Assembly: GCA_012034595.1 (NCBI GenBank) | Contig: JAAUPE010000050.1 | Coordinates: forward strand, 1-44,397 | Length of the DNA stretch: 44,397 nucleotides | Direction: 5' to 3' | From: Calothrix sp. CSU_2_0 | Lineage (GTDB): Bacteria > Cyanobacteriota > Cyanobacteriia > Cyanobacteriales > Nostocaceae | Part shown: piece by piece, positions 30,572 to 44,397 of the stretch | Position numbering within the stretch: the stretch's first letter is position 1 | Layout of the letters: each line of letters opens with the position of its first letter | Program-made: the position numbers and the translations under genes | The notes under the pieces: model-generated | What the model was told of the DNA's origin: nothing | What the model saw: only the letters and a program-made list of their open reading frames with translations | Databases searched by the model: none

Positions 30572-30730
30572 GTGATTATTCGTTTACCTTCTCGATATAC
30601 TTTTGCCGATTGGCAACAAGCAATAGAGATATTAAAGCAAGGATTAGAGTCAGCAGAAGTTACAGGGAAGCTGTGGATTATTCAAAGTGGCAGTATTCAG
30701 GAATATCGACCAATTGAGCCAGATTTATGA
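30572..30730 (+). CDS. Small protein of unknown function, translationally coupled to cas3'
   Basis: GTG start at 30572 with CAGGA five bases upstream; 52 residues (begins MIIRLPSRYTFADWQQAIEI, contains GKLWIIQSGS and EYRPIEPDL). The stop TGA overlaps the cas3' ATG as ATGA, which is strong evidence for translation. No family is recognised. It is the first gene of the cas operon, so it could be an accessory Cas subunit, a regulator, or a leader peptide that opens cas3' translation. Confidence 0.65.
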   Translation: MIIRLPSRYTFADWQQAIEILKQGLESAEVTGKLWIIQSGSIQEYRPIEPDL

Positions 30731-32914
30731 TTGATGAAAGTATCTACCAAGTTAATTTAAAATCAGTATATTCATCACCAGCAGAGGAGAGATTGCAAGA
30801 TGTCAAATTACCCAATAATTGGTCACTTTCCTGGCATCAAGTAGAAACTCTGAAAGCATTACGCGACCCAAATATCGACGTTATTGTCAACACTGCAATG
30901 ACGGGTGATGGTAAAAGTTTAGCAGCATATTTAGAAGTACTTCAAGGAGAATGTTCTGCGATCGCACTTTATCCTACTAACGAGCTTGCTCGCGACCAAG
31001 AAATACAAATCAAGGGGTATATTGATACTTTTAAACCTGCGAATAATCCCCGTGTAGCGAGATTAAGCAGCGCAGAGTTAGAAGTTTATGCCGAGAATGA
31101 AGGATTGAGAAAAAGTGCAGCAATTTCAACTTTGACCAATCAAAGAGAAGTTATACTTACTAATCCTGATATTTTACATTACTTGCATCGTGGAGCATAT
31201 TTAGTACCTGGTGATAGCCCGGATAAATTATGGGGCAGAATCGATAAGGATTTTTAATTTATTTATTTTTGATGAGTTCCACATTTTCTCTGCACCACAA
31301 ATTGCTGGGGTAATTAACACGATGTTGTTAATTAATTGTACTAATCATCATAAAAAGTTTCTTTTCCTTTCCGCAACACCCGATATAGAATTTATCGATA
31401 AGTTAAAAATAGCAGGTTTTCGCTGTCAAGAAATTAATCCATTAGATAAACATAAATACCATTTTCCCAATAATCAACAGCAAGAACAAGAGTTGCAAAA
31501 TCAAAATTGGCGACAGGTATCACGCAGGGTAAGGCTAAATTTAATTTCTTTAGAACCATCATTTAAAGCGTCGGAAACTTGGATAAAAGAAAACAGCAAT
31601 TTAATTTTGGAATATTTTCAAAGAAACCCAGGTAGTAAAGGTGCAATTATTCTTAATTCCATTGCCGCAGTTAAGCGACTTGTACCATTTTTCCAGAAAA
31701 TTTTTGAAGCACATGGTTTAACTGTTGGCGAAAATACTGGTTTATCAGGAAAATTAACAAAAGAAAAATCACTTTTAGCTGACTTAGTTTTTGGTACGAG
31801 TACAATTGATGTCGGTGTGGATTTTAAAATAAATTTATTAATATTTGAATCTTCCGACGCAGGTAACTTTATTCAGCGTTTAGGACGATTGGGAAGACAT
31901 GACGGTTACGAAAAAGATGGGGAAAAAATTAAGTTTGAGGAATATACAACTTACGCGCTAGTACCAAACTTCTTAGTCGAGCGGTTATTTTTAGGAGATA
32001 ATCCACCTTTAGAAAATACGGGAAATTACGATCGCGCGTTTTTAAATACCACAATTAAAGAGAAGTATCGCCAAATCAACGACTTTCGCGGTTATTATCA
32101 ACGCTGGGGTGCAGTACAATCATTTTACTTATTTCATAAATTGAGCGATCGCACTATTCAACAACAATACGCTCAAAGCCGTGAGAAGTTCCAAAAAGCC
32201 TGCGAAAACGTATTTGGAACAAGTCTCAAATCGATAGCTGGACGTGTATCTGGTTGGGCAAAAGATTGGAAAACTACTTCTGGTAAATCTGGTAATCCTA
32301 TCGCTGAGGATGCTTCTAGTTTCCGTGGTGCGAGTTCCTTGCAATGCGGTTTGTATGATTTGACGGAGGAGAATGAAGCTGACAGATTTAAAACCTACGA
32401 TTTACCTGGAATCCTAGGGAATTTGGAGATAGAAATGTGGACGGAAGCGGGATTTATGCGGACACTTAAAGAAACCGCACAACGTACCGGACAACCCATT
32501 CCCAAGGGTAAATATGAGCATTGTCTGGGATTTATGAAGTTGCGTAGCTATCGTGAGGAGCGGTTGAATTGGAAATTTGTATATCCAGGAGACTTACAAG
32601 GAATTGCAGATGTATGGAAAATCCAAGTTCTGACGGGGATTGAAGTTTGGCAACCCGATAATAATTATGTCAGGGAAATTAACAAACGCTTGAAAAAACA
32701 GGGGTTAGTTTGTTACGTGTTGCGTCATCCAATTGCAGAGGTGAGAAATAGATTACGCTTACCAATGCACTTTCAGCTTTATCCAATATCCGATGAACTT
32801 AGTTTACATGATAATTCCGCACCGTATGCGATCGCGTTTGGTCAGTCTGCGTTGTTGCTGGATACTTTAGCTTACAGGTTTAAGAGTAAGGGGGATGAAA
32901 TATGGATCGCTTAG
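30727..32914 (+). pseudogene. cas3: Cas3' helicase of type I-D, split by a one-base frameshift
   Basis: Type I-D Cas3' is an SF2 helicase without the HD nuclease. Frame one (30727-31257) carries motif I (TAMTGDGKSLAA, residues about 56-67) and motif Ia-like ALYPTNELARDQE. Frame two, used from about 31251, carries motif II (IFDEFHIFS), motif III (FLSATP), GTSTIDVGVDF (motif V) and FIQRLGRLGRHDG (motif VI). Removing one T from the five-T run at 31251-31255 gives DKDFNLFIFDEFH with nothing lost, about 729 residues. If the shift is real, interference would be abolished; I think it is an error. The degenerate mini-array starts 2 bases after the stop. Confidence 0.87.
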
Positions 32915-32915
32915 G

Positions 32916-33016
32916 GTTTCAATCCCTGATAGGGATTATTTTGAGAAAAAAGCTTACGGTTTTAAGCACAGACTTATTCGTTTCAATCCCTAATAGGGAT
33001 TAGTTTAAGTTTTGAT
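32916..33016 (-). CRISPR. Degenerate two-repeat mini-array (CreA-like crRNA gene candidate)
   Basis: On the minus strand, a first repeat (33016-32980) matches the array repeat at 31 of 37 positions with an intact ATTGAAAC handle. It is followed by a spacer-like segment beginning GAATAAGTCTGTGCTTAAAA (from 32979). A second repeat (32942-32916) is identical to the last 27 bases of the consensus but degenerate in its first 10. Both keep the AATCCCT/AGGGATT stem. Orientation is opposite to the main array and the cas genes. A possible minus-strand promoter uses TATATG at 33040-33035. Such a degenerate pair inside a cas operon fits crRNA-like regulatory RNAs. Confidence 0.75.
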
Positions 33017-33058
33017 GTGCGCGTAAAGCCATCTCATATAAAAGAGTTCCATATTAGG

Positions 33059-33111
33059 GTTGAATATGTCAAGGCTTATATGAGGTTGAATAAGTCTAAG
33101 CTTATTATAAT
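33059..33111 (+). promoter_or_regulatory. Promoter with two GTT-flanked sites matching the mini-array spacer
   Basis: TATAAT at 33106-33111 is a perfect -10 box. GTT at 33085-33087 is followed by GAATAAGTCTAAGCTTA, which matches the spacer-like segment at positions 1-10 and 13-17. GTT at 33059-33061 is followed by GAATATGTCAAGGCTTA, matching 1-5, 7-9 and 13-17. The two sites are a 26-base tandem duplication. GTT fits the type I-D PAM (GTH). The protospacer overlaps the -10 box, so Cascade binding would block it. Confidence 0.65.
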
Positions 33112-33236
33112 AGCTAGAAATCGCTTGACATCAGCTTTCGTTTTTTGTAGCGTCAACTTATACAAATTGCTGAAGGTCAGATATAACAAGCATCTGGACT
33201 GATGTGTCTGTATGTCAAAACTTGTAAATTAGGAAA
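33112..33236 (+). other. Possible short transcript or tiny toxin-like ORF under the targeted promoter
   Basis: Transcription from the TATAAT at 33106 would start near 33118. A 25-residue frame from TTG 33125 to 33202 (start LTSAFVFCSVNLYKLLKVRY) is hydrophobic then basic. It is also the tail of a longer frame from 33017. Ribosome sites are weak. It is a candidate for the repressed partner of the mini-array, or simply the 5' leader of the next gene. Confidence 0.25.
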
Positions 33237-33245
33237 ATGCTATCT

Positions 33246-33443
33246 ATGCTTGTCAAGCGAACCAAGCTTGAGAAATTGCTTACAATCCTCAAAGACGGTA
33301 ATTGGCATTCAAGCGATGAACTAGCAGCAAGTGTTAGTTTTCGATTTGGAGACACTGTGTTTAAAGCTCGCAAGAAAGGCTACTTTGTTGAGAAAAGGCA
33401 AGTCGCTTATAACCAGTTTGAATATCGATTATCAGTACAGTAA
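33246..33443 (+). CDS. Small winged-helix-like DNA-binding protein
   Basis: 65 residues from ATG 33246 (AGGA about 11 bases upstream; ATG 33237 is an alternative). The sequence LEKLLTILKDGNWHSSDELA, RFGDTVFKARKKGYFVEKR and NQFEYRLS has the helix-turn-helix plus wing pattern of small cyanobacterial winged-helix proteins. It may be expressed from the promoter at 33106. It is in the same direction as the cas genes. Its role in the locus is unknown; a local regulator is plausible. Confidence 0.6.
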   Translation: MLVKRTKLEKLLTILKDGNWHSSDELAASVSFRFGDTVFKARKKGYFVEKRQVAYNQFEYRLSVQ

Positions 33444-33502: not shown

Positions 33503-33655
33503 TTTCCCCTTTGAAGAGGGAAGTACCAGCTTGCGGTATTAAGCGCAGGTATAAGCAGTCTTAATCCCCAACAGCTTTGCTGATGGTTGAGAAAGTCACT
33601 TAAAAAGCCAAATCTTAAAGCAGTAAGTTTTAGTCAAGCTTCCCTCTTTTCTTAA
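33503..33655 (+). ncRNA. Structured RNA candidate or attenuator upstream of the YhcG gene
   Basis: AAGAGGGAAG (33514-33523) pairs perfectly with CTTCCCTCTT (33639-33648), extended by CTTG/CAAG (33530-33533 with 33635-33638). Inside, CAGC-TTT-GCTG (33572-33582) is a further hairpin. AGAGGGAA can alternatively pair with upstream TTCCCC (33504-33509), a mutually exclusive fold. T-rich sequence follows. No known RNA family was recognised. Confidence 0.4.
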
Positions 33656-33667
33656 AAAACAACATCT

Positions 33668-34696
33668 ATGTCTCCTATGAATAAACCTACTCCAGAAGAT
33701 TATCGAAATCTATTAGTAGAAGTAAAGCAGCGTATTCGTTTAGCGCAATACGCTGCACTAAAAGCAGTTAATCAAGAACTAATTGCACTGTATTGGGATA
33801 TCGGCAAAATGATTGTTACCCGTCAACAAGGTGCAACTTGGGGAAAATCAGTTGTCGAGCAACTAGCAAAAGACTTACAAAATGAGTTTCCAGGTATTAG
33901 TGGATTTTCATCTGCTAATCTATGGCGAATGAGACTTTTTTATGATAACTATGCTGCTGATGAAAAACTCGCACCATTGGTGCGAGAAATTGGTTGGACT
34001 CATAATTTAGTCATTTTAGAAAAGTGTAAAGATGACTTAGAACGCGAGTTTTATATTAGAATGACTCGTAAATTTGGCTGGACGAAAAATGTGTTAATCC
34101 ACCAAATAGAAAATCAAACCTACGAGAAAACTTTGCTCAATCAAACCAATTTTGAGCAAACAGTTTCAGAAGAGATTCGTCACCAAGCAAAGCTAGCAGT
34201 CAAAGACGAATACACATTTGATTTTTTAGAATTAGCAAACGAACATAGCGAACGACAATTAGAGCAAGCAATTTTGACAAGAGTTGAACCATTCCTGCAA
34301 GAAATGGGTGGAATGTTTGCCTTTATCGGTAGTCAATATCGACTCGAAATAGACGATGAGGAATATTTCATAGATATTTTGCTATATCACCGTATTCTCA
34401 AATGCTTGGTTGCAGTCGAACTAAAAATTGGAAAGTTTTTACCTGAATATGTTGGCAAAATGCAATTTTATTTGGCAGCATTAGATGAGAACGTAAAGCA
34501 AGCAGATGAAAATCCATCGATTGGAATTATTATTTGCAAGTCAAAAAATAAAACTATTGTTGAGTACGCATTGCGAGAATCAAATAAACCAATTGGTGTG
34601 GCAAGTTATCAAATAGTTTCCACAGTTCCACAAGAACTTAAAAATCAGCTTCCTGCACCAGAACAGGTATCAAAGCTATTACAGGGAATAGAGTAA
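33668..34696 (+). CDS. YhcG/DUF1016 family PD-(D/E)XK nuclease
   Basis: The product is 342 residues. The N-terminal DUF1016 domain (about 5-160) includes ELIALYWDIGKMIVTRQQGA and the ISGFSSANLWRMRLFYD segment. The C-terminal nuclease domain (about 190-340) has YRLEIDDEEYFIDILLYH followed by VAVELKIGKF, i.e. Asp and Glu-x-Lys of the PD-(D/E)XK core. The start may be 33668 or 33677. It lies 18 bases before cas10d and in the same direction, so it is probably co-transcribed with the interference genes. The family is widespread near restriction, toxin-antitoxin and mobile loci; it is not a standard I-D component. Confidence 0.9.
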   Translation: MSPMNKPTPEDYRNLLVEVKQRIRLAQYAALKAVNQELIALYWDIGKMIVTRQQGATWGKSVVEQLAKDLQNEFPGISGFSSANLWRMRLFYDNYAADEKLAPLVREIGWTHNLVILEKCKDDLEREFYIRMTRKFGWTKNVLIHQIENQTYEKTLLNQTNFEQTVSEEIRHQAKLAVKDEYTFDFLELANEHSERQLEQAILTRVEPFLQEMGGMFAFIGSQYRLEIDDEEYFIDILLYHRILKCLVAVELKIGKFLPEYVGKMQFYLAALDENVKQADENPSIGIIICKSKNKTIVEYALRESNKPIGVASYQIVSTVPQELKNQLPAPEQVSKLLQGIE

Positions 34697-34714: not shown

Positions 34715-37700
34715 ATGGCTAGAAAAACTAAAGATTCTGACGAATCCAAGCAGCTTTCATTATTTGACAATATATCTAACAATATATCTGACAGTGGATT
34801 GGATGAAAATTCTGAATTAGAAACTTCTGACGTAGAAAATTCTGAAATTACGGACGAATCTGATGATAGCTGGTTAGACGGTGATTTTGGTTTTGATGGT
34901 GATTCTGACAGAACGATCGCAACCAAAAGTGAGTTACTAACTCTTAAGTTATTACGGGAAGCAATAGAAGCACAAAACCCTAATGACCAAGTGATGTCAG
35001 ATTTTGGCAAATATGTATTACCAAATTTGCTGAGTATTGCTATTGGAGTTACAGCAAAAGGTGGTAAATTCTTTGATGAAATTGACGAAAAGCGAGAAGC
35101 AGAAGGGAAAGCAAAAGTTCGACGCGATAATGCTGCTGACCAATCTTTAAATACTCATTTACTCAATGGATTATTTCCGGCAAATTTAATTGAGAGACGT
35201 TTGCATAAACTCGATACCACAGTGCAACGAGTGGTAAGAGAAAAAGAAAGGAGATTAGTAATTGCTGGGTTTATTCTTCACGATTTTGAAAAATTCCCCG
35301 ATGTTCCGAATGATTGTCGCAAGTTACCACTAGCAGAACATCGCCAAATTATCGATGAAAAAGTCAGACAATTAGGACTAGATAAGTTTATCAATCTAGA
35401 AAATCCAGAAGCTTATAAAGAATATATTGATGATTTGTTGTGTATGGCTTACAATGCACAACGACGTTGGGATACTAATTGGAATTTTTCCGAATTTGGC
35501 TTAAATCCTGTTCTCAAAGATAGAACACTTCGCAGTTTATCAGATTTAACTTGTCTTGCCGATTCTCTCGCTTCAATTATTAAACATCCTCAAGATGCTG
35601 AAAATCCTAGACTTAATGAAATTATTCATAGTTTGAGTGATGGAAAATTAAAATTTACCTATCACCGCATTTCTGAAAACCGAGGTGTGTTAACAAATGT
35701 GGTAAATAATGCGTTAATGGAAGCACATACCAGTTTAAATACTGAGGAAAATATCTACTATGAACCTCTGTTATATCTACCAACAGGAGTGATTTACCTG
35801 GCTCAAAGAAATGCTCCAGCTATTTCATTAGATGATGTACCTAATCAAGTTATTGAAAATATAAAATCACTTTGTTCTGGGCAATTAAAACTCAGACAAA
35901 CAGGATTTGGTCGTGATGGCAAAGGGATGAAATATGCCGAATATTACAATTTATTTTTTGAGGAAATTGGCTTGATGAAAGTAGCTTTAGATGCTACATT
36001 AAGGATACTAAATCCTCAGAAAGATTCGGTTGCTAAAAGCCGTAGTGATAACTTAGTTAAGTTTCAACAGCAAAATGTATTATCTGCTGATTATGACTTC
36101 AAATTTGCCGATGATATTCGGATTGACCAAATAGCAGAATTTGGAGATTTAATCTGTCGTAAAATTTGGGGTGAAAGTGTCAATAGAATTGAAGCTGCTT
36201 GTAAAAAAGATAAAAATTTACCTAAATTAACACAGTTCGATTTAACTCACAAAGTTGCTGAATATTGGAACTTAACAGAATATCTACCCCAAATTAGGGA
36301 AATTCAACGCATTAATCAAAGTCTCAAGGAAAATAAATTAAAAGGTAATACTGGGGGAGTTCCCTATGAGTGGTATTACCTCGCAGCTAAATATCTAGAA
36401 AAAAATCCTGGAATTGAGAATGTTAGAGAAAGTTGTCAGCAAGCGATCGCACATATTAATAATTTAATTTCTCCGATTCTTTCCCAATATGAATTACCTG
36501 ATGGTTGGAATGATTTACGACTCTGGGTAAAACAAGTTGTCATGTTACCAGGAAATCAAGAAACACAATCATCTGATAACTTCTTGAACGAACTTGCTAA
36601 CTATAATGCTGCGAAAAAATCGGGACGGGGAAGACAATTAATTTGTTCTATTTCCCATTCTGCTTACACTGTCACCGAACAGATGGAATCTGCGGTTTTG
36701 TTTACTCCCCAGGTTTATACAAATAAACAAATGTTGAATGGTTCTAATGCCAAACGTAATATTTCTAGTATTGCGGGATTAGAAATGATGTTGCGGCAAA
36801 TATTGATGAATCAGACTCAGGCTGTTGGGAAAAGATTTGAAGATGGAAAATATCGTTATCTGTACTTTTATCCCACTTATTACTTCACTCCAGAAACTAA
36901 TAAGTTTTTGCAAAAAGCTTACACTGGAATTTCTCAAACTCGATTCGATACCAGCATTCGCAATCACTTTATCAGTAAAGATTTGCAAGCTGATTTTAAT
37001 AAGGAAAGATATCAAAATGTTGATGCTTTTTTAATTGATGAAAACTTAGAGTCAGAAAAAGATAGAACCTTTAAACTTTCCTATCCAGATGACCAACCTT
37101 TGACATTTTACTTCATGGCAATGCCACCAGGAAGGGACAGCAGTGACACCGAATCTTGGGTAATGCCAAGTTGGTTAGCGTTTGCTTTTCCGATGATTTT
37201 AGACGTGAAAACAGTAGTTTCCGAATCACCTATTCCCCCCTTTAATGATGGTGCTGAGTTTGAAGAAAGCGTATTTCTTGATAGCGCACCTCATGCTTTC
37301 CGAACCTTAGTAGGAAGGGATAGATTTCGACTTGATTATATCCTCGAAGGATGGAAGGAAAATAATAAATCCTATCCTGCACCACTCAACGTACTGACAG
37401 CAGCTTATGCAATTCATATAGACGTTAATGCCAAAAGCGGAAAGTCTGGTTATGATGCAAACTGGGGTAGATTTACAGAGTTAGCCAAGGATTTTGAAAC
37501 TACTCCTCTTCATGTATTTGCTTATCTGAATCGCTGGGTAAGGAATCAAGCAATAGAAACAGCAAGAATTGAAAAAATAAAGCTTTATGCTTATAACTTT
37601 TACCCTTGTTTTGACCCTTGTGCAGAATATGATTTTGAATCAAAGGAATGGAAATTAATGCCAGAATCGCAATTGAATCATCCAAAAAAATTAACCGATT

Positions 37701-38125
37701 TGTATCGTAAGTTTTATCGCGCTAACAAACGCTATAACCCCAAATCTAATGCAGTATTAAAACCAATTGATATTGCAGCAGAGACAATTCTCAAAGCTGA
37801 AACTAGTGTATTTAATGGAGATACTTTAGTCGCAGCAGTCGCAGCAGAAGTATTCAAACTCATGGATAGAGTTCATGCAAATACTGCGGATGGACGCTGG
37901 GTAATGAGCAAACGGGAAGAAGAAAGACAAGCAGTTTTAGATTTTGCGAGGTATTTTGTGATGGAGGTTTTTGAAAACTCATTTGCAGGCGATCGCGCTC
38001 GTTTAGCAGGTAGACAATTGAACTTAATTAAAGACACTTGTGAATTTTTATATCGCTTGGAGGATGATAAGGAAAATGCCAATAAAGAGATTAAAGAAAA
38101 CGAAAATGAAACAAATAAAGATTAA
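34715..38125 (+). CDS. cas10d: Type I-D large subunit Cas10d (Csc3) with HD nuclease
   Basis: Large subunit of the I-D Cascade; its HD domain supplies the nuclease missing from Cas3'. The product is 1136 residues. Residues about 25-66 are acidic and low complexity. The HD region has THLLNG (His148) and FILHDFEKFPD (His189-Asp190). The middle shows the diverged Palm typical of Cas10d, without a classical GGDD. The C-terminus (after 1040) is charged and helical. A GAGGGAAG ribosome site precedes the ATG. It follows the YhcG gene by 18 bases. The gene is intact. Confidence 0.95.
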   Translation: MARKTKDSDESKQLSLFDNISNNISDSGLDENSELETSDVENSEITDESDDSWLDGDFGFDGDSDRTIATKSELLTLKLLREAIEAQNPNDQVMSDFGKYVLPNLLSIAIGVTAKGGKFFDEIDEKREAEGKAKVRRDNAADQSLNTHLLNGLFPANLIERRLHKLDTTVQRVVREKERRLVIAGFILHDFEKFPDVPNDCRKLPLAEHRQIIDEKVRQLGLDKFINLENPEAYKEYIDDLLCMAYNAQRRWDTNWNFSEFGLNPVLKDRTLRSLSDLTCLADSLASIIKHPQDAENPRLNEIIHSLSDGKLKFTYHRISENRGVLTNVVNNALMEAHTSLNTEENIYYEPLLYLPTGVIYLAQRNAPAISLDDVPNQVIENIKSLCSGQLKLRQTGFGRDGKGMKYAEYYNLFFEEIGLMKVALDATLRILNPQKDSVAKSRSDNLVKFQQQNVLSADYDFKFADDIRIDQIAEFGDLICRKIWGESVNRIEAACKKDKNLPKLTQFDLTHKVAEYWNLTEYLPQIREIQRINQSLKENKLKGNTGGVPYEWYYLAAKYLEKNPGIENVRESCQQAIAHINNLISPILSQYELPDGWNDLRLWVKQVVMLPGNQETQSSDNFLNELANYNAAKKSGRGRQLICSISHSAYTVTEQMESAVLFTPQVYTNKQMLNGSNAKRNISSIAGLEMMLRQILMNQTQAVGKRFEDGKYRYLYFYPTYYFTPETNKFLQKAYTGISQTRFDTSIRNHFISKDLQADFNKERYQNVDAFLIDENLESEKDRTFKLSYPDDQPLTFYFMAMPPGRDSSDTESWVMPSWLAFAFPMILDVKTVVSESPIPPFNDGAEFEESVFLDSAPHAFRTLVGRDRFRLDYILEGWKENNKSYPAPLNVLTAAYAIHIDVNAKSGKSGYDANWGRFTELAKDFETTPLHVFAYLNRWVRNQAIETARIEKIKLYAYNFYPCFDPCAEYDFESKEWKLMPESQLNHPKKLTDLYRKFYRANKRYNPKSNAVLKPIDIAAETILKAETSVFNGDTLVAAVAAEVFKLMDRVHANTADGRWVMSKREEERQAVLDFARYFVMEVFENSFAGDRARLAGRQLNLIKDTCEFLYRLEDDKENANKEIKENENETNKD

Positions 38126-39285: not shown

Positions 39286-39992
39286 ATGACTATAATTTAC
39301 CGTTGTCAAATTGAATTACATGATAGTGTTTATTACGCAACCCGCGAAATTGGTAGACTCTACGAAACTGAACCAGTAATTCATAACTACGCGCTCTGCT
39401 ACGCACTCGGATTAGTAGATAGCGATAAATATGCAACTACTGTCTCTGAAGAACATTCCTACCGCTATTTTTGCCCCGAACAAGTACCAAAATATGAGGA
39501 ACATTTAACCCCGCTAAATCAACAGGAAATTTATGTAACTCCAGCATGTTCCATCAGTCATACTTCCATACTCAATACATGGAAATATGCGAATAATAAT
39601 TACCATGTAGAGATGGAGAAAACTCAAAAGAATATTCCTAGCTTTGGGAGAGCAAAGGAAATTGCACCAGAAAGCCAATTTGAGTTTTTGTAATTTCTCA
39701 AAAAGAAATTAAGTTACCAAAATGGATTCGCTTGGGAAAATGGATGAGTAAAGCAGAGGTTACTGTTGAACCATTATCCCAACCAAAAATCAAAACAGAT
39801 TTATTTATCTGTACCCATCCTTTAAATCCATTGGATGTGATGTTCACTAATCAAGTAATTAGTTACGATGTGGTAAATATGCCACCAGTTAGTTTGATTC
39901 AAAATGTGCAGATGCGCGGACGATATTACTATTTTGAAAATGCCAAAAATGTGAGATTACCCGTTAATATGGCATACCGTTTTCGGAATTAA
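39286..39992 (+). pseudogene. csc1: Type I-D Csc1 (Cas5d), split by a one-base frameshift
   Basis: Csc1 caps the 5' handle of crRNA. Frame one (39286-39693) runs from IIYRCQIELHDSVYYATREI to SQFEF. Frame two continues VISQKEIKLPKWIRLGKWMS and on to NMAYRFRN at 39992. Adding one T to the five-T run at 39685-39689 joins them as EFFVISQKEIK, about 235 residues, the normal Csc1 size. Nothing else is damaged, so a sequencing error is likely. Confidence 0.87.
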
Positions 39993-43820: not shown

Positions 43821-44397
43821 ATTGCAATTTAAAATAATCCCTATCAGGGATTGAAACGAGATGGTATGACAGACATACCTGATCCTTATGATTGCAATTT
43901 AAAATAATCCCTATCAGGGATTGAAACATATACCGCTAGAGGACAAGCTGAAATCAAGGGTATTGCAATTTAAAATAATCCCTATCAGGGATTGAAACGG
44001 GTAGCGTGGAGATATTTGCCGAAAGCAGCATAACTTCCATTGCAATTTAAAATAATCCCTATCAGGGATTGAAACATTTTTTCTGCCTCTTTATTAAAAA
44101 GAATTTTTGAATTGCAATTTAAAATAATCCCTATCAGGGATTGAAACAAGAAAGCGGCTGAAAGCTATGTACACATCCATGTATTGCAATTTAAAATAAT
44201 CCCTATCAGGGATTGAAACTTTTTTTTGGGATAATCTTATTATAAGCTCATCATTGCAATTTAAAATAATCCCTATCAGGGATTGAAACATAAATATTCG
44301 GCGAAAAAACTTCATTGAATTGATTGCAATTTAAAATAATCCCTATCAGGGATTGAAACAAAAATTGATTCACTCTCTGCCGAGAAAGAGAAAAATT
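43821..44397 (+). CRISPR. Type I-D CRISPR array, eight visible repeats, continues beyond the window
   Basis: 37-base identical repeats (ATTGCAAT...ATTGAAAC, with AATCCCT-ATC-AGGGATT stem) start at 43821, 43891, 43962, 44039, 44111, 44183, 44253 and 44323. Spacers are 33, 34, 40, 35, 35, 33 and 33 bases. The final ATT (44395-44397) may open a ninth repeat, giving a 35-base eighth spacer. The handle orientation and the leader at the left show plus-strand transcription and new spacers next to 43857. All repeats are perfect, as expected of the active leader end. Confidence 0.98.

Follow-up and report, generated by a model that had tools for sequence, protein, structure and literature searches.

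We analyzed a stretch of 44,397 nucleotides (nt) from the cyanobacterium Calothrix sp. CSU_2_0 (contig JAAUPE010000050.1, positions 1 to 44,397; hereafter "the window"), which carries a type I-D CRISPR-Cas (clustered regularly interspaced short palindromic repeats and associated genes) locus with cas10d, csc2, a separate cas3', cas6, cas4, cas1 and cas2. Between cas3' and cas10d lies a minus-strand mini-array, i.e., one spacer (the guide) between two degenerate copies of the repeat of the canonical array, psiR1 and psiR2, the latter lying one base past the cas3' stop codon. On the plus strand follow two DNA sites that match the guide next to a protospacer-adjacent motif (PAM), a gene for a small protein, and an element antisense to the guide (Table 1). 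An earlier note, made from the sequence alone, had described the two repeats and had read them as a gene for a type I-D guide of the CreA/CreR class, i.e., a CRISPR RNA (crRNA)-like RNA that directs the Cascade effector to repress rather than cut; the second DNA site, the small gene travelling with the guide and the PAM-less antisense element go beyond that note. Both repeats were found independently by the Rfam model CRISPR-DR5, above its gathering score of 40 bits, and, as in the CreA/CreR class, they lie outside the canonical array and beside cas genes. The 30 nt of the guide matched by the antisense element extend into the degenerate start of psiR2, as far as 32950.

Table 1. The mini-array cassette of Calothrix sp. 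CSU_2_0 and neighboring features (positions in the window; L039 and L101 are loci of the comparison set).
Feature	Positions	Strand	Remarks
psiR1, first degenerate repeat	32980..33016	-	31/37 to the array repeat; Rfam CRISPR-DR5, 43.6 bits
Guide (spacer)	32953..32979	-	27 nt between the 37-nt repeats; sequence starts GAATAAGTCTGTGCTTA
psiR2, second degenerate repeat	32916..32952	-	30/37, last 27 bases perfect; Rfam CRISPR-DR5, 41 bits
DNA target A	33059..33078	+	PAM GTT 33059-33061, protospacer 33062-33078; 13/15
DNA target B	33085..33104	+	PAM GTT 33085-33087, protospacer 33088-33104 = GAATAAGTCTAAGCTTA; 14/15 scored positions
Likely promoter of the small-gene unit, TTGACA-17-TAGCGT	33125..33153	+	Read by eye; directly downstream of the target
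65-amino-acid winged-helix protein, family F1	33246..33443	+	First gene downstream of the target
Antisense element	33527..33556	+	Predicted transcript antisense to 30 nt of the guide; PAM-less
cas3'	30727..32914	+	TIGR03158; two reading frames here, one frame in L039 and L101
YhcG/DUF1016 nuclease	33668..34696	+	Pfam PF06250, PF17761; PADLOC PDC-S02; cargo between cassette and cas10d
cas10d (csc3)	34715..38125	+	TIGR03174, 1166 bits
Canonical CRISPR array	43821..44359	+	8 identical copies, 37-nt repeat

As reported before, the guide matches a GTT-flanked site ~70 nt from the mini-array (target B) at 15/17 positions, with positions 1-10 perfect and little match past position 17. The second site for the same guide (target A) lies 26 nt from target B, and its complement contains TTGACA on the minus strand, so that the guide may also restrain its own promoter. 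The seed 10-mer was rejected as genome-wide evidence as it showed no excess (11 matches in the genome vs 10 for the reversed pattern). The promoter that the earlier note had placed at 33106 is, judged by eye, probably not one in use, as its TATAAT is poorly spaced for a plus-strand promoter and is not seen in related winged helix-turn-helix (HTH) loci; a pattern like TTGACA-17-TAGCGT recurs at the equivalent place in these loci (also read by eye) and is the likelier candidate. A consensus promoter scan of the window reported neither of the two as a plus-strand promoter.

For comparison, we assembled 121 cyanobacterial type I-D loci, made up of a main group (the window and the best 80 of 151 loci) and a second group of 40 stretches; without duplicates, 106 remained. 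A first repeat and its spacer were recovered, with a search on one core motif that misses loci with other repeats, in 78 of the 106 loci (64/81 of the main group, window included, and 14/25 of the second group); two extra loci (L079 and L081) gained a first repeat with a relaxed handle, and part of the loci without a recognized unit have little upstream sequence (none in L114). DNA sites were scored within 300 nt, with a GTN PAM, over guide positions 1-17 minus 6 and 12 (15 scored positions); as the main and hold-out scoring ignore sixth positions, dips there are partly built in, while the element search and a PAM-free rescan picked sites without sixth-position weights. Three loci in which psiR2 had been mistaken for psiR1 (L070, L071 and L113) were counted as misses among the 78 and dropped from the element analysis (75 left).

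The guide scored at least 11/15 in its own locus in 68 of 78 loci, as compared to 40 of 5142 foreign pairings (0.78%) and 31 of 3900 shuffled spacers; a score of at least 13, such as that of target B, was reached in 0/5142 foreign-spacer and 0/3900 shuffled-spacer comparisons. The PAMs of the 68 matched loci were GTT (34) and GTC (34) with no others, and in the PAM-free rescan GTT or GTC stood in front of 58 of the 62 best sites (at least 13/17). A chance match of guide and DNA site was rejected on these scores and on this rescan. Among 61 unique pairs with sites chosen on all 17 positions, the match was 0.41 at position 6, 0.36 at position 12, 0.51 at position 17 and 0.74-1.00 at the rest. 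Of the 78 loci, 27 (window included) had two sites with scores of 10 or more, and 2 had three. The comparison of guide and target in related I-D loci, which the earlier note had proposed, gave no sign of independent drift: own pairs far surpassed foreign ones and also beat pairs permuted within the small-gene families F1, F2 and F3 (p = 2e-4 each).

A review of type I-D systems (PMC10212523) describes bases flipped out at each sixth position, states that type I tolerates a mismatch at seed position 6, gives the PAM as GTN or GTH, and mentions a WYL regulator. Since none of the 68 matched loci has a PAM other than GTT or GTC and the mismatches fall at flipped-out positions, the assignment to a type I-D member of the CreA/CreR class appears right, and it agrees with the own-locus matching; moreover, as in this class, the PAM-flanked match is nearby, of seed type and too short for cleavage. 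CreR has been reported for types I-B, I-E and V-A (PMC13131331) and is said to be widespread in type I as well as V-A (PMC12737573). The present guide resembles CreR in being encoded by a host mini-array partly complementary to a putative promoter in a cas locus, where CreR lets the effector repress cas genes (PMC13131331). It differs in belonging to type I-D, in having a small gene of an exchangeable family first behind the putative promoter, in its often double DNA site, and in fitting a PAM-less site in the transcript. Degenerate repeats (psiR1 and psiR2) and a seed-type match, here to a putative promoter, are likewise shared with CreTA (PMC9458426) and CrePA, the latter of which represses a protein toxin (PMC12737573); the present cassette differs from both in its six small-gene families, in its antisense element and in a product not matched to toxin families.

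The target heads the small gene, upstream of cas10d. The protein of the window gave a PADLOC HTH match (PDLC01152, E 2e-25), no Pfam or NCBIfam match, and an AlphaFold model (predicted local distance difference test, pLDDT, 83.8) whose Foldseek matches are winged-helix regulators (best E 0.04). Among the 78 loci, the small genes behind the target fell into families F1 (24 loci), F2 (17), F3 (22), F4 (4), F5 (3) and F6 (5), with none found in 3. F1 proteins (19 rows aligned) are winged-helix proteins, F2 proteins carry QLxLFD and QLELxLF motifs, F3 proteins look by eye like coiled coils, and F4 is perhaps HTH; the F2 leader is conserved in sequence, with a weak consensus structure (-6.37 kcal/mol) that was not used as evidence. 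Guide families mostly pair with one gene family, the exception being the related guides in L055 (F1) and L138 (F2). Mapped on a 52-row Cas10d tree with four families present, the family labels required 26 changes, as compared to a shuffled mean of 26.1 (as low in 113/200 shuffles), and the window's nearest relatives by Cas10d, i.e., L119 (93%, F3), L101 (92%, F2) and L039 (~90%, F3), each have guides of their own. As read from the sequences, guide, target and small gene are swapped between I-D loci as one cassette, moving freely yet matched inside.

One slot shared by unrelated small genes (F1-F6), each with its own guides and with tree changes at the shuffled mean, would fit an addiction module of the CreTA/CrePA kind, in which Cascade would hold down a harmful small protein or RNA that is freed on loss or inhibition of Cascade. 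The viral guide mimic described below would fit it as well, as would the finding that F2 was detected only near cas10d (3/3 genomes with a match, 60 searched) and that 16/17 F2 proteins end in AA (LAA in 15, QAA in one; e.g., L101, L076, L078), ends that we take to be degradation-tag-like. Conversely, nine representatives searched in Pfam and eight in PADLOC gave no match to a toxin family, F1 and perhaps F4 resemble DNA-binding proteins, and addiction sits poorly with a Synechocystis that lacks the cassette and with a csc1 that is seemingly broken in the window's own genome (see below). Overall, we regard addiction as possible yet rather doubtful.

A conserved noncoding stretch, first noticed in F1 loci, was then found to be antisense to the guide. 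In the window, this element is identical to the guide, in guide sense, at 21/30 positions (25/30 with G.U), with mismatches at 2, 3, 6, 7, 8, 12, 19, 24 and 30. An unweighted best antisense match of at least 20/30 was present in 44 of 75 loci, as compared to 7/900 foreign and 3/225 shuffled comparisons. Elements were accepted in 47 loci (F1 22, F2 16, F4 4, F5 3, F3 2): 42 of them reach at least 20/30, and the remaining five (four F4, one F5), at 16-19, were included on account of their position and flanks. Two loci with 20/30 or more were not accepted (L089, and L138, where the match is the PAM-flanked DNA site). Of the 47 element loci, 41 also have the DNA site; the exceptions are the F5 loci (three), L045, L106 and L118. 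The element lies 3' of the small gene in F1 and F4 and before the gene in F2 and F5.

The match between guide and element follows a 6-nt register. Among 43 unique pairs it was 0.35, 0.26, 0.19, 0.12 and 0.07 at positions 6, 12, 18, 24 and 30, as compared to 0.79-1.00 at the remaining positions from 9 to 29, except 21 (0.67); it was weak at positions 1-3 and 8. The dip was seen in each of families F1 to F5 alone, F3 with only two pairs: the sixth-position match was 0.26, 0.15, 0.10, 0.15 and 0.13 (19, 15, 2, 4 and 3 unique pairs, respectively), as compared to 0.92, 0.91, 0.89, 0.86 and 0.85 at the other positions from 9 to 29. No such dip appeared at periods of 5 or 7, and foreign matches of at least 18/30 (99/750) were without sixth-position dips. 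GTN stood at the PAM place in 0/47 elements.

Guide complementarity in a 6-nt register without a PAM is what would be looked for in an RNA target of type I-D Cascade. With no PAM, a weak seed and the register of Cascade, the element is most simply read as a single-stranded target; as the guide-complementary strand is the cassette's transcript, the element would most likely be met as RNA. Binding of the element as PAM-free double-stranded DNA (dsDNA) is disfavored by the mismatched seed positions and the missing PAM. A tRNA-like reading was rejected (no tRNA was found, and Rfam gave only the repeats and one match far below cut-off), and a weak consensus structure of the F1 element (-2.85 kcal/mol) was not used as evidence. 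The spacers fold somewhat more than canonical ones (z -0.93 vs -0.22, p 1.5e-4, 25 representatives); a spacer hairpin was nevertheless set aside, as the antisense match explains the distal half better. Type I-D Cascade of Synechocystis binds single-stranded RNA (ssRNA) in vitro specifically and independently of flanks, at ~11 nM, and its choice among ssRNA, single-stranded DNA and dsDNA has been named an open question (PMC9123187); in vivo, I-D interference has been demonstrated only for dsDNA (PMC10212523).

In F1 and F2, own guide-element pairs scored above pairs permuted within the family (p = 2e-4), and they did so on positions 18-30 alone as well. The differences between guide and element were overall more often G.U-compatible than A.C (75 vs 41; reversed in F4, 3 vs 10, and F5, 3 vs 4). 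Another reading is a pure CreR, in which autorepression of the cas10d unit is all that the guide does, with the small genes as passengers and an element that has no function of its own. The cassette does head effector genes, with the small gene ending 41-72 nt before cas10d in L060, L063 and L064, and it again precedes them in other I-D layouts. F1 lay near this kind of cas10d in 8 of the 12 genomes having F1 (60 searched), and of four other F1 loci two (G006 and G157) again have a mini-array and a matching site (14/15 and 13/15) ahead of I-D genes in other orders, with Cas3', Csc2 or Csc1 models over cut-off; in G157, the large subunit was below the Cas10d cut-off while Csc2 and Csc1 were over theirs. 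Autorepression alone is nonetheless unlikely, as the element holds to the register in five families and shows co-variation with the guide past position 17 in F1 and F2, which drift would not bring about; the close coupling of small-gene family and guide family also speaks against it. Another thought is that the element is a second, diverged minus-strand guide gene, both guides aiming at a shared target. The guide-sense 5' flank of the F1 element (ggggttgagact) does resemble the repeat end, but in F2, F4 and F5 the flank does not look like a repeat (by eye), and the element matches best at 9-29, farther along the guide than the promoter match, and poorly at 1-3, 6 and 8, which makes a second guide gene quite improbable.

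The hold-out group was drawn from another 40 stretches, separate from those of the comparison set, of which 20 were new and 19 of these had a first repeat; they belong to the same taxonomic family as the window and are thus not fully independent. A DNA site was found in 13/19, with L193 (wrong repeat) counted as a miss, and an element, by unweighted choice, in 9/19. The match of these elements was 0.22, 0.56, 0.22, 0.33 and 0.11 at the sixth positions and was also low at others (0.11 at 8; 0.67 at 19 and 21). A plasmid locus of Picosynechococcus PCC 7117, outside the set, has a DNA site (14/15) and an element (18/22) with mismatches at 2, 3, 8, 13, 18, 21, 22 and 30, a single pair that shows no register by itself.

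Six guide patterns were searched in viral contigs and gave 15 matches in 14 contigs, 13 without repeat context and one with a real mini-array. The latter (L208; IMG/VR contig 3300044673_000327, 85 kb) has a repeat-guide-repeat unit at about 2052-2159, surrounded by baseplate- and tail-like proteins, and its guide scores 14/15 on the window's DNA site and up to 20/22 on F1 elements. The record gave no Cas10d match and no terminase match for the two families tried, so that its assignment as viral is based on IMG/VR and on the tail genes. Such a copy could keep the host cassette shut during infection. L208 resembles the phage RNA anti-CRISPRs (Racr) in being phage-borne and crRNA-like, and differs in having two repeats and a spacer fitting host sites, as compared to the solitary repeat of Racr (PMC10651486). 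The window itself, a host locus with two repeats and a matching spacer, is likewise not a solitary phage repeat acting as a decoy. Stretches of 1.4-1.9 kb from Nostoc phages N1 and YongM and Microcystis phages LMM01 and MaMV-CH01 contain repeats and no such guide. As a separate observation, YongM, MaMV-CH01 and LMM01 (L222, L223 and L224) carry short I-D-like repeat arrays in or near small genes; their spacers matched nothing tested here.

Taken together, the mini-array is quite probably a gene of the host that encodes a CreA/CreR-class, crRNA-like guide for type I-D Cascade, with a DNA arm directed at a promoter and an RNA arm, and the cell probably uses a virus-cutting machine as an RNA-guided regulator of itself. 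The guide would be transcribed, processed and loaded into Cascade. In the DNA arm, guide positions 1-17 and the GTT or GTC PAM would bring Cascade to one or two sites at the putative promoter of the small gene, with which the cas10d unit would begin; as the DNA match stops near position 17, too short for destruction, we propose transcriptional repression. In the RNA arm, guide positions ~4-29 would pair, without a PAM and in the 6-nt register of Cascade, with the conserved element in the transcript of the same cassette. This element could add a second layer of repression, in which Cascade binds or cuts the message; alternatively, it could act as a sponge, so that transcription of the unit would titrate guide-Cascade away. 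We consider it an evenly balanced question whether the guide is bipartite to the full extent, its seed half addressing the promoter and its distal half an RNA element in the transcript under repression (which would be a natural RNA target for a type I effector), as a DNA-plus-RNA switch over interchangeable small effector genes ahead of the cas10d genes that phages hold shut with guide copies.

Several observations weigh against this interpretation. A DNA site at threshold is missing in 10/78 loci, i.e., the three F5 loci, which have only the element, L045, L106, L097 and L118 (the latter two scoring 10), and L070, L071 and L113 with the wrong repeat. The element is absent in 18/20 scanned F3 loci, 5/5 F6, 2/24 F1 and 1/17 F2 loci; all four F4 elements are among those of only 16-19/30; and within-family permutation was not significant, with few pairs, for F4 (p 0.25) and F5 (p 0.32). 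The I-D review numbers flipped bases from position one, as compared to position six in the present register. No minus-strand promoter for the guide was convincingly found, and evidence for the targeted promoter is weak, as -10-like hexamers 20-34 nt after the PAM start (17, 15 and 18 of 62 loci per 5-nt bin; no shuffled control) are equally frequent at 5-9 nt, inside the protospacer (17/62). In Synechocystis 6803, where cas3' and cas10d are 13 nt apart, no mini-array was found. Cascade may not work in the window's own genome, as csc1 (39286-39992) and cas3' are each split over two reading frames (single frame in L039 and L101), through either assembly error or decay of the local Cascade. Finally, 28/106 loci gave no recognized first repeat and spacer, which, along with the degeneracy of the repeats, could suggest a relic of old spacer acquisition or of local duplication without present function. 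Own-vs-foreign matching, the emergence of the PAM, the 6-nt register, within-family co-variation and the hold-out loci make a relic extremely improbable.

What is new here is the RNA arm, i.e., the PAM-less antisense element in the predicted transcript of the cassette. Among titles and beginnings of abstracts, a sample with subscription papers and preprints largely outside it, we found no such I-D guide and no natural RNA target of I-D Cascade, and the I-D review contains neither "CreTA" nor any word beginning with "mini" (PMC10212523). The element offers a conserved, testable natural RNA site for I-D Cascade. If this interpretation is true, a single guide lets a CRISPR effector control its own locus at both the DNA and the RNA level, and the swapping of cassettes together with the viral copy places the switch in phage-host conflict. 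The standalone-repeat elements of Shmakov et al. 2023, in Nucleic Acids Research (NAR), are reportedly mini-arrays, mostly of type I, with partial complementarity to the promoters of cas genes or of cargo genes, and may include I-D; they are not known to have an RNA-side target.

Besides the nuclease gene of the window, other cargo between cassette and cas10d includes a pair of nucleotidyltransferase and DUF86 genes and DUF433-like proteins (L161 and L139). A charged tail with QLSLF or QLSLL, presumably a sliding-clamp-binding motif, is frequent at the start of Cas10d (window 34715-34800; loci L039-L118), and Q[LM]xLF occurs inside the first 60 Cas10d residues in 28/81 loci, with start codons picked by a simple rule; F2 proteins hold two motifs of similar sequence. 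In loci L139-L153, Cas10d is ~50% identical and has in-frame stop codons in several loci, and five of these loci have a single recognized repeat with minus-strand sites.
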